A stretch of 64,000 nucleotides of DNA from Halorhabdus utahensis DSM 12940 (GTDB lineage Archaea; Halobacteriota; Halobacteria; Halobacteriales; Haloarculaceae), in NCBI RefSeq assembly GCF_000023945.1, contig NC_013158.1, forward strand, positions 1,488,001 to 1,552,000. The letters are read 5' to 3'. Below are positions 57,540 through 61,229 of this stretch, piece by piece (position 1 is the stretch's first letter; the number at the start of each line of letters is the position of its first letter). Below the pieces are notes generated by a model. It made no database searches. It had not been told where the DNA came from and worked only from the letters and a program-made list of their open reading frames with translations. The position numbers and the translations under genes are program-made.

Positions 57540-58305
57540 TAGAACCGCGAGAAACCGACGACAGCGCACTCCTGAGGAAAACTCCAACCCGGAAGGTGTG
57601 CGGAAACCGCCTCAGAGCGTCCCGTGTGCCGGTGTCAACAGTTGCGTGGCTCCCGATGACCCCTCGGGATGACGGCCCACCCCCTTCGAACCTCGGCCAG
57701 CCGACTTCAGTATAGTCGTATTTAGTTTATCGAGTGCCGTGACAGGGCATCGCTTTACGGCACGACCTTCCGAATTGAGAGGAGGCAATCTCGAGAGGAG
57801 ACAGGCCGAACAGCGCGAATACAGTGGCAGTCTTCAGCCTGACAGCGGTTCGAAGTGTCGATCGGCGGTGTGAACCTCCCCGACGAGGACACCACGTCGG
57901 CTCGACCGCCAACGCTGTGATCGTCGGCTCCGCCTGCTGGGAAACGCTAGTCCAGTGTCGGGCCACGAGACAACCTGTGGGCAACCCCTGCTATCTCAGG
58001 GATGGGTTGCCGCCTGGGAGACCCATACGGGTGGTTCATATCTCCCGGCATGATGACAGCCGAGCCCCGCACAGTGCTGGGTGCTTGCCGCCCGACTGCG
58101 GCTGGCCGTCAAACTCCACGGCTACGATAAACCATATACCGATATACCTAATTGAGTTCCGGCCGAATGCACTGTTTGGGAGGATGCGGTCAGGCCGGAA
58201 GGCCGAGAAAGTGCTGAACGAGCCAGGCGCTTCGACCGCATGGAGCGAAGTACGTCACAGCCGGATGACTGTCGGAGTGTCTGGCCAGGTAGAATTTCGG
58301 AACAT

Positions 58306-58312
58306 CTTTATG
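58306..58312 (+). promoter_or_regulatory. TATA box of the iron-box operon
   Basis: CTTTATG is centred 25 bases before the ATG at 58334, as expected for a leaderless haloarchaeal transcript. The iron box sits between it and the start codon. Confidence 0.6.
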
Positions 58313-58315
58313 TTG

Positions 58316-58331
58316 TTTAGGCTAGCCTAAA
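58316..58331. promoter_or_regulatory. DtxR/IdeR-type iron box (perfect 16-bp palindrome)
   Basis: TTTAGGCTAGCCTAAA is a perfect inverted repeat whose core TTAGGCTAGCCTAA matches DtxR/IdeR-family operators; haloarchaea use Idr/SirR members of this family. It lies between the TATA box and the ATG at 58334, so bound repressor would block initiation. It is the only such site I found in the window. Iron repression of the operon is therefore expected. Confidence 0.82.
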
Positions 58332-58333
58332 AA

Positions 58334-58516
58334 ATGACAACCGAGACAAACGACGAGAATGGACAGACCCGACGTGACGGCGGAACGGACGGCGGTGCAG
58401 TCGACGGCGGACCGTTCACGGGTTGTGTCGGCGATGGCGGACAGTCGAGGCGTGAGGGGATACCCGCCGACGTGGCGACGGACACCTCGACGGCCACGGA
58501 GACTGCCGAGTCATGA
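58334..58516 (+). CDS. 60-residue leader protein of the iron-box operon
   Basis: The product is 60 residues, polar, Gly/Asp/Thr-rich, with one Cys (GGPFTGCVGDGG). It has no membrane segment or domain that I recognise. It starts three bases behind the iron box and overlaps the flavoprotein gene by ATGA, so it is coupled to it. Its small size and composition suggest an intrinsically disordered or regulatory protein; translation is not proven. Confidence 0.55.
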   Translation: MTTETNDENGQTRRDGGTDGGAVDGGPFTGCVGDGGQSRREGIPADVATDTSTATETAES

Positions 58517-59244
58517 CTGCGCCGATGGACGTGGTCGTCGTCGGCGGCGGTGTCGCGGGCCGCTCGGCGGCCGTGTTCACCGCTCGCCACGGACTGGACA
58601 CACGTGTGATCGACTCGGGTGAGTCGATCCTGCGCCGAAACGCCCACCTGGAGAACTTCCCGGGCTTCCCGGCCGGCGTCAACGGCCGGCAGTTACTGGA
58701 TCTGCTCGAAGAACAGGCGGCAGAAGCCGGTTGCGAGCAGGTGACCGGAACCGTCACGCGGGTCGAGCCGACCGACGAGGGGTTCGCCGTCGAGACCGAG
58801 GACAGCAACCGCTCCCAGGCGACGTACGTCGTCGCGGCGACCAAGAACGCGGTGGGCTACCTCGACGGGGTCGATGGCGTCGGAATCATCGACCGGGGGA
58901 AGTCGTTCGTCGACACCGACGAGCGGGGTCGCACCGGCGTCGAGGGGCTGTACGCCGCCGGCAGACTCGCCGAGAAGCCCCACCAGGCGATCGTCTGTGC
59001 CGGCCACGGCGCGGAAGTCGGCGTGACGATCCTCGAAGACGACGGCCGGCCGTTCTACCACGACTGGGTCGCGCCCGACGGGTACTTCACCGACCGCGGT
59101 CGCGAGTTGCCCCCAGGTTGTGAGGAGATCGACGACGAACAGCGCCGGGAGCGCGAACGGCGCTCGCTCGGCGTGACCCGCGAGCGTTTCGCCGAACCGC
59201 ATCCGGACGAACAGGTCACCCACCCGAGTCTGCGAGGCGAGTGA
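58513..59244 (+). CDS. Thioredoxin-reductase-like FAD oxidoreductase without CxxC
   Basis: The product is 243 residues. The N-terminal FAD loop is VVVGGGVAGRSAAVFTARHG, and a second FAD motif is GVEGLYAAGRLAEKPHQA near 160-177. The length and order match short thioredoxin-reductase-like proteins, but the redox CxxC and an NADPH domain are missing. It may reduce a ferric siderophore or similar, or only bind FAD (inference). It sits second in the iron-box operon with a four-base overlap on each side. Confidence 0.82.
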   Translation: MTAPMDVVVVGGGVAGRSAAVFTARHGLDTRVIDSGESILRRNAHLENFPGFPAGVNGRQLLDLLEEQAAEAGCEQVTGTVTRVEPTDEGFAVETEDSNRSQATYVVAATKNAVGYLDGVDGVGIIDRGKSFVDTDERGRTGVEGLYAAGRLAEKPHQAIVCAGHGAEVGVTILEDDGRPFYHDWVAPDGYFTDRGRELPPGCEEIDDEQRRERERRSLGVTRERFAEPHPDEQVTHPSLRGE

Positions 59245-59273
59245 CGGGACGAAATATCGACGGAGAACCACAC

Positions 59274-60251
59274 ATGCTCGGAACGACGCTCGAAGAGATC
59301 CGGTCACACATCGAATCACTGGCGAGCGAGGACGGGCCGTACTACCTCGTCTGTGCTCGCTACGGCGACCGGCCGGTCCCCACGACTGGCCTCCGGTTCC
59401 GGACCCGAGCCGAAGCACGGACCGCTGCACGCGCGACCGAGCAGTATCGGGCGGCGCTGCGGCGCTACGACCCGCGATTGCCCCGCTACGACGTCATCGT
59501 GTGCCAGAGATCCCTTCGGGTAACGCCCGGATCAACCGGCAGAGGTTCTGAACCTGGCGGATCGACCAGTCGAACCGATCAGGCACGGCCGCCCGAAGAC
59601 GACCAGGGGGCCGACGGCGAACCGCGCTCGGAGCCGAGTGACGTCGATCCCTGGAGCGGGTCGAATCACGGTCCCGGGAGTCGCGTGGAGTTCTGCCATC
59701 GGGTTGCCGGGGCCGTCTTCGAGGCGCTGTCGGACTGTGGTCACGACGCGGTTGAATCGGCCGTGATGGACGCGTACTTCGAACTGGCCGAGCGCGTGGG
59801 GGACCTCGACGACCTCTGTGTCTGTCTGCTCGAGAGTATGGCGGGCGAGATCGACCGGGGACTTTCGGCCGACGAGCAGGCGACGGTCATCGACACGGCA
59901 GTCTCACGGTTGCCGGGGCCGGCTTCGACGGACCACCCGGTCGAGGCGACGCTGGCGTCACTCGAAAGCCGGGAGCTACTCAAGGAGTTCACGTGGTCGC
60001 CAGCGACCGAGGGTCACGATCCGAGGGCCGTCGATGTGGTCGTTGGTCTCTCCGGGTACGCGCTGTCACCCCGGGACGGGCGGCTGCCCGTCCTCCCCGT
60101 GGTCGTCGAACTGGTCCGTCACGAGCCGTCGAAGCGGGTCGCGTCGCTTCGCGTGGCCGATCTCGAGGACGGCTGGCGGATCCGCCTCCGACTGGCTCGT
60201 AGCGCGACGTCGGACGAACTCGTCACGGCACATATCCGTTCGGAGGGTTGA
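59274..60251 (+). CDS. Haloarchaeal DUF7551-like protein of the iron-box operon
   Basis: The product is 325 residues. An N-terminal part (about 1-85; HIESLASEDGPYYLVCARYGDRPVP) is followed by a Gly/Asp/Pro linker and a helical part (about 135-215) and a beta-rich end. I recognise it only as a conserved haloarchaeal family (DUF7551 by memory). The ATG at 59274 with GGAG eight bases before it is preferred; a GTG at 59241 overlapping the flavoprotein stop is also possible. The context implies a role in iron limitation. Confidence 0.68.
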   Translation: MLGTTLEEIRSHIESLASEDGPYYLVCARYGDRPVPTTGLRFRTRAEARTAARATEQYRAALRRYDPRLPRYDVIVCQRSLRVTPGSTGRGSEPGGSTSRTDQARPPEDDQGADGEPRSEPSDVDPWSGSNHGPGSRVEFCHRVAGAVFEALSDCGHDAVESAVMDAYFELAERVGDLDDLCVCLLESMAGEIDRGLSADEQATVIDTAVSRLPGPASTDHPVEATLASLESRELLKEFTWSPATEGHDPRAVDVVVGLSGYALSPRDGRLPVLPVVVELVRHEPSKRVASLRVADLEDGWRIRLRLARSATSDELVTAHIRSEG

Positions 60252-60252
60252 G

Positions 60253-61038
60253 ATGGGGGCCCAGACCCGAATCCACGACGCACGGGACCGCGTTGAGGAC
60301 GAACGGGAGGCCATCGAGGCGAAACTCGACGCGGTCGACCGGTTCGTCGATCGCGTCGAGAACTGTCAACCGGGACCGACGCCGGCGGCTGGAAGCGTCA
60401 CCGCGACCGCCGGCACGCTCTCCCGAGACAGTCCGAGCGGGGGCGACACCTGCGAGGTCGTTCGAGAAGCGTTCGCCGAGACGATCCGCCCACACAGCCT
60501 CGACGACGTCGAAGAGCGCGAGTCTCTACCGGAAACGATCCAGACGGAACTCTCCGGGTCGGTCGCCGTCGCGCTCGCACCCACGATGAACACCAGTTTC
60601 ACACCCGAACTCAAGCAAGCAGTGCTTTCGGAAGCACGTACTCGCCGAGCCGAGACCGAGACGCTGGGGAAAGCCCTCCAACGCGAAGCCACGCAGTTGG
60701 CCGACGCTGCCGCGGTCGTCGACGAGATTACCGGGTGGATCGTCACGGCCGACGAGACTCCGCTGAGCGACCTCGGGTTCGAGGCACTGCGAGCGCGTCA
60801 CGAGCGTCTCGACACGTACCGCGAGCGGTGTGAAACCGTCGCAATGTGGCGCCAATCGTTTCTCGACGGCGCGACGAACAACGGTCCGGAAGTCGGGGTC
60901 ACTCACCGGAGCCTCGGTCCGTACTTATACCAGGACTTTCCCACGGATCACCCGGTGTTGACGACGGTGGCTCGACTCGCGGATACCTGTGGGGACTGTC
61001 AGCGAGCGGTTCGGGATCATCTGGTCCGGAGGGCCTGA
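60253..61038 (+). CDS. Haloarchaeal DUF7260-like helical protein
   Basis: The product is 261 residues, mostly helical (RIHDARDRVEDEREAIEAKL) with a CxxC near the end (DTCGDC at about 245-250). I recall such proteins as DUF7260, next to DUF7551. It starts one base after the stop of the preceding gene, confirming the operon. The CxxC could bind metal or act in redox. The function is unknown. Confidence 0.68.
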   Translation: MGAQTRIHDARDRVEDEREAIEAKLDAVDRFVDRVENCQPGPTPAAGSVTATAGTLSRDSPSGGDTCEVVREAFAETIRPHSLDDVEERESLPETIQTELSGSVAVALAPTMNTSFTPELKQAVLSEARTRRAETETLGKALQREATQLADAAAVVDEITGWIVTADETPLSDLGFEALRARHERLDTYRERCETVAMWRQSFLDGATNNGPEVGVTHRSLGPYLYQDFPTDHPVLTTVARLADTCGDCQRAVRDHLVRRA

Positions 61039-61040
61039 CC

Positions 61041-61229
61041 GTGTACGACGGATCCCGACACACGCGGGCCCGGCTCTGGGCGTGGGTGTACGCCGCGGTC
61101 TTCGAACCCGACGAGGGACATGATTCGAGTGACGGCGACGGGCGGGACGGCCGTCCGAGAGACGGCAACACCGCACGGGAGCCGAGTGACGTCGATAGAC
61201 CCGGACGAACGTCGTGGACGAGAAAGTAG
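61041..61229 (+). CDS. Short protein at the end of the iron-box operon
   Basis: The product is 62 residues from GTG, two bases behind the previous stop. The N-terminal 25 residues (ARLWAWVYAAVFEPDEG) could form a helix; the rest is Asp/Arg-rich and disordered-looking. Position supports translation as the last operon gene, but composition alone does not; it may be untranslated. Confidence 0.4.
   Translation: MYDGSRHTRARLWAWVYAAVFEPDEGHDSSDGDGRDGRPRDGNTAREPSDVDRPGRTSWTRK

Follow-up and report, generated by a model that had tools for sequence, protein, structure and literature searches.

The window analysed here, the whole 64,000-nucleotide stretch of Halorhabdus utahensis DNA, contains a perfect 16-bp palindrome followed by five tightly packed open reading frames. 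As judged by sequence comparison, these probably constitute an accessory operon, repressed by iron, that belongs to the siderophore-uptake regulon (DtxR/Idr/FerR) of haloarchaea and from which the lead gene, encoding a siderophore-binding lipoprotein (SBP, Peripla_BP_2), has been lost. With this assignment, the use of siderophore iron is linked to three uncharacterised haloarchaeal families (an FAD-only flavoprotein, DUF7552/7551 and DUF7260) as well as to a small WxWVY protein, and their role can now be tested in genetically tractable haloarchaea. As far as the literature searched shows, the connection of these DUF families with siderophore use is new, as is the repeated survival of operator-bearing stubs of the lead gene.

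The iron box and the layout of the operon

The palindrome, TTTAGGCTAGCCTAAA (58316–58331, no strand assigned), is a predicted iron box of the DtxR/Idr/FerR type that was located by pattern search and promoter alignment. It is the single match in the 64-kb window when up to three mismatches are allowed, with 0.02 matches expected by chance, and the pattern TTAGGNNNNCCTAA (TTAGGN4CCTAA) occurs at six places in the 3.12-Mb genome (3,116,795 bases), compared with none for the reversed control pattern. Two hallmarks of a DtxR/Idr/FerR regulon are present, namely a palindromic TTAGGN4CCTAA operator at the promoter and a genome-encoded DtxR-family repressor (PF01325 above its cut-off at five places). 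Other perfect boxes in the same genome lie at 1870738 (L136:4739), 1882546 (L137:4547) and 1883820 (L137:5821). Behind these three are a glycosyltransferase-like gene, a Tat lipoprotein gene with a membrane-permease-like gene behind it, and a 386-aa gene; the lipoprotein and the permease-like protein could possibly form a Fe3+ ABC transporter.

BRE/TATA-like promoter elements (CGGAACA...TTTATG, 58298–58312, + strand) precede the box, as seen in the sequence itself and in an alignment by box with SBP promoters. The TATA-like TTTATG occupies 58307–58312 and the ORF1 ATG begins at 58334, 3 bases past the palindrome end, with the palindrome lying between the two as the preliminary description had stated. 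The 76 box-linked SBP promoters, aligned by their boxes, show CGAAA around positions −18 to −14, followed at −10 to −6 by a TATA element rich in T and A. The distance from box start to ATG is 17–20 bases in these promoters and 17 bases in the window. Most SBP promoters have two boxes, whereas the window has one, the second box that is usual ∼36 bases upstream being absent on reading the window sequence. No RNA element was found in the operon region.

All five reading frames are on the + strand. ORF1 (60 aa, 58334–58516) shares an ATGA overlap with ORF2 (243 aa, 58513–59244), ORF4 (261 aa, 60253–61038) follows ORF3 (325 aa, 59274–60251) after a single base, and ORF5 (62 aa, 61041–61229) follows ORF4 after two, which bears out the tight packing described earlier. 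The gap of 29 bases between ORF2 and ORF3 (59245–59273), previously given as possible, is real because aligned homologues share the start Met at ATG 59274; the alternative GTG start at 59241 would add 11 codons. No intact SBP, FecCD permease or ABC ATPase gene is present at 57.5–62 kb, for which reason we class the operon as a relic or accessory operon and not as an uptake operon. Searches with tblastn for remnants of SBP or other genes between 57540 and the box gave only weak, chance-like matches.

The fhu genes and operons of Haloferax volcanii carry such iron-regulon signals and several Fhu proteins are upregulated under iron starvation (PMC11349517). The haloarchaeal iron regulon of the DtxR-family regulators FerR, Idr and SirR includes the fhuCGD siderophore transporters (Leyn & Rodionov 2015; Schmid et al. 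2011; cited in PMC11349517). As described there, the regulon resembles the present case in having the signal before uptake operons, with SBP, FecCD and ABC genes as neighbours. Unlike the fhuCGD operons described there, the operon in the window has no transporter gene, and its SBP is represented by an apparent 60-codon relic. From what is known of these families, a repressor of the Idr/SirR/FerR type together with Fe2+ would occupy the palindrome and block the promoter when iron is replete. When iron is scarce the repressor would leave, and transcription of the operon would give a message with no leader or almost none.

The flavoprotein, the DUF proteins and their relatives

ORF2 is assigned, from family and structure matches, to a short subfamily (FLs) of FAD-only thioredoxin-reductase-like flavoproteins. 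Alignments show that it corresponds to just one half of thioredoxin reductase, the one that binds FAD, with neither the CxxC motif, the absence of which had already been recorded, nor the whole NADPH domain. It scores 88 bits against TIGR01292, for which the cut-off is 343, and is not a thioredoxin reductase, which would have both of these features. The nearest solved structure is 2cvj/2ywl (180 aa), annotated only as 'thioredoxin reductase related', which shares the FAD-binding Rossmann fold without an NADPH domain (E 6e-23 over nearly the whole 2cvj/2ywl length). Unlike 2cvj/2ywl, ORF2 extends ∼60 residues further at the C-terminus, where it has conserved FYHDWV and PPGCEEI motifs, and is encoded in an iron-box operon. 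In a tree, ORF2 groups with moderate support with two flavoproteins encoded behind an intact SBP gene, those of Halorubrum sp. Hd13 and Halovenus aranensis.

Genes and boxes were called in two overlapping sets of other haloarchaeal loci (60 and 80). In the 80-locus set, DUF7552/7551 is accompanied by a perfect box, between −2.7 and +0.4 kb from the gene, in 65 of the 76 called loci, and 162 of the 166 perfect boxes are intergenic, with none for the reversed control. By Pfam, the commonest neighbours of DUF7552/7551 are Peripla_BP_2 SBP, FecCD permease and ABC ATPase genes, and two flavoprotein subfamilies (short and long) and a DtxR-family regulator are also common. In many relatives the flavoprotein gene is directly upstream of DUF7552/7551. 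The complete operon is found in Halococcus thailandensis (L183) as box–SBP–flavoprotein–DUF7552/7551–DUF7260, with the iron box and gene order of the window; unlike the window, it has an intact SBP (>400 aa), an adjoining DtxR-family regulator gene and a second box, with one mismatch, 34 bases upstream. Another genome of the same genus (G139) has the order box–box–SBP–SBP–flavoprotein, with a flavoprotein 72% identical to ORF2, and this operon adjoins long-flavoprotein, FecCD and ABC genes. Elsewhere in the H. utahensis genome itself, at 2.24 Mb, lies an intact SBP/FecCD/ABC uptake locus, which also has a paralogous flavoprotein. No IucA/IucC siderophore synthesis genes were found in this genome, which therefore has at least no schizokinen/aerobactin-type synthesis.

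Conservation of the box and gene order across haloarchaea, the check named in the preliminary description, is thus observed and supports the predicted role in iron limitation. It had also been argued that an operon with no siderophore or transporter genes represents an undescribed response. This is not supported, since the box and genes occur in or adjoin ferric-siderophore ABC uptake operons in many relatives and ORF1 appears to be what remains, in degenerate form, of the N-terminus of the siderophore-binding lipoprotein that is missing here.

With less confidence than for the operon as a whole, we infer that the flavoprotein is probably a reductase acting on imported ferric siderophore. It would carry out a redox step, most likely reductive release, on siderophore iron imported by the FecCD-ABC system at 2.24 Mb, and, having no NADPH domain of its own, would need a partner as electron donor; the DUF proteins would be cytosolic helpers. 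A quite plausible alternative, although not the one we favour, is that the flavoprotein has a different redox activity in the iron-starvation response, for example as an oxidase or disulfide enzyme, and that the DUF proteins are its partners; this would suit the missing NADPH domain and CxxC motif and the noncommittal annotation of 2cvj/2ywl. However, the short and long subfamilies adjoin SBP, FecCD and ABC genes in many loci (SBP within ∼7 kb in 37 of the 76 called loci), which speaks against this alternative.

Two further observations concern the flavoprotein genes of relatives. In G194, of the same genus, an orthologous short flavoprotein behind three SBP genes (L130:4405–4752) is cut to a 116-aa frame in which only residues 142–241 match and the FAD-binding part is internally deleted. 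Halorubrum operons (L078, L092, L200, L205, L208, L236, L239 and L244) contain a conserved 58-aa ORF (MRAREWxVAAxxGDPTxYDVP...) that immediately precedes the flavoprotein gene and in most cases separates it from the SBP gene.

ORF3 contains DUF7552 (PF24422, E 2.7e-36) and DUF7551 (PF24420, E 3.4e-68), and ORF4, which is predicted to be all-helical, is a DUF7260 protein (PF23921, E 3.5e-79); all three matches pass the curated cut-offs. The ORF3 and ORF4 families are widespread in the class, being present in 113 of 194 and 118 of 145 genomes, respectively. The two proteins described earlier as haloarchaea-specific thus belong to families already catalogued in Pfam. Predicted models of DUF7551 and DUF7260 gave no convincing match to solved structures (best E 0.1 and 0.9), nor did the predicted structure of DUF7552/7551, and the literature searched yielded no paper on DUF7551. 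ORF5 has a GTG start, a W-x-W-V-Y core and an acidic tail. Homologues of 51–52 aa begin 3 to 6 bases after DUF7260 in three other loci (L042, L068 and L070) and have the core W-x-W-[VL]-Y-x-x-[LV]-F, with K-S-W-L-Y at this place in L068 and a tblastn match of E 1e-5 in L070. Judging by these homologues, the short tail protein, previously listed as a possibility, is a real gene.

ORF1 and the lost lead gene

A profile of 411 positions was built from 77 box-linked SBPs, none of them from the window. Starting from its first residue, ORF1 aligns with profile positions 1–57 at E 6.8e-5, where shuffled sequences give E >4, and its best local alignment scores 101, compared with shuffled maxima that have a mean of 58.4 (s.d. 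6.0) and reach 79 at most. An SBP-like sequence is therefore present at the right position for a lead gene. ORF1 retains the Tat motif TRRD, a lipobox-like GC and a Thr/Ser/Asp linker, and the hydrophobic core of the signal peptide is gone, so that function as a signal peptide is not expected. On the basis of the match to the SBP N-terminus and the loss of this core, ORF1 is identified as the predicted stub, an N-terminal relic, of a deleted siderophore-binding ABC lipoprotein gene. Other Tat lipoproteins also match the N-terminal SBP profile, some of them better than ORF1; the similarity is partly generic to such proteins, and position, box spacing and operon context therefore carry part of the argument.

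Stubs are also found in the same operon in relatives. The 106-aa stub of Halorubrum rubrum (L191) keeps the C-terminal 68 profile positions of the SBP (E 1.5e-27), the 89-aa stub of Halorubrum sp. 48-1-W (L201) scores 96 against a shuffled maximum of 77, and the 28-aa stub of H. kocurii (L236) has weak similarity. The Halorubrum rubrum operon (L191/L075) resembles that of the window in the order box–SBP deletion relic–flavoprotein–DUF7552/7551, and differs from it in that the relic keeps the SBP C-terminus and no DUF7260 gene lies behind. The 4-base junction with the flavoprotein is shared by the 48-1-W stub and by the intact SBP of Haloarchaeobius iranensis (L177). Two other candidate relics were not counted: L187, which scores 71, below its shuffled maximum of 79, and the N-terminus of L065, the similarity of which is not significant.

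It is improbable that ORF1 instead has a function of its own, as a leader peptide or a small protein under iron control, at the head of a dedicated non-siderophore iron-limitation system. Its open frame and its ATGA coupling to the next gene have been kept, and many genomes have DUF7552/7551 downstream of a box and no transporter gene within ∼7 kb, so that the unit can work without adjoining uptake genes. However, ORF1 aligns with the signal regions and linker of SBPs and starts at the SBP box-to-ATG distance, and the stubs that relatives have at the equivalent place differ from it in length.

If ORF1 is a relic of the SBP gene, it would serve only as a translated 5′ end coupled to the flavoprotein through the ATGA overlap. 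More broadly, and only tentatively, haloarchaea may repeatedly delete the SBP gene while retaining its operator and the beginning of its coding sequence, start codon included, as a short leader that is still translated, in which case the flavoprotein/DUF7552/7551 module would be an independent iron-starvation system that outlives the transporter component. The proposed reason for keeping the stub is that near-leaderless promoters of this type have operator and start codon fused. The case also illustrates how a short 'hypothetical' ORF that follows a regulated, near-leaderless promoter can be what is left of a deleted gene and supply the genes downstream with their operator and start codon. That the operon is decaying after the loss of its SBP and has no present function, as the shortened G194 flavoprotein and the presence of DUF7551 in none of the four other genomes sampled from the genus might suggest, is very improbable, since the four downstream ORFs are all intact with their family motifs, the DUF genes match Pfam at E 1e-36 to 1e-79, the box is perfect and the GC3 of the operon genes is 0.74–0.86.

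A related series is seen in Haloferax. In Haloferax mucosum (L048, − strand, with the box at 1232 of that strand, and L204) a truncated SBP N-terminus of 153 aa (E 2.7e-20) lies directly behind an iron box and heads a flavoprotein-FecCD operon, and at the corresponding place Hfx. denitrificans and Hfx. massiliensis have just a 21-aa stub. These remnants represent the serial decay of one lead gene.

A conserved protein of ∼49–56 aa is encoded directly behind perfect boxes in many haloarchaea (loci L178, L180, L190, L225, L226, L233, L236, L238 and L100). It has the core C-x-S-x-P-G-K-V-V-F-L-E-S-G-N-T-D-G-W-I and starts 19–23 bases after the box, and these proteins form a candidate iron-regulated microprotein family.
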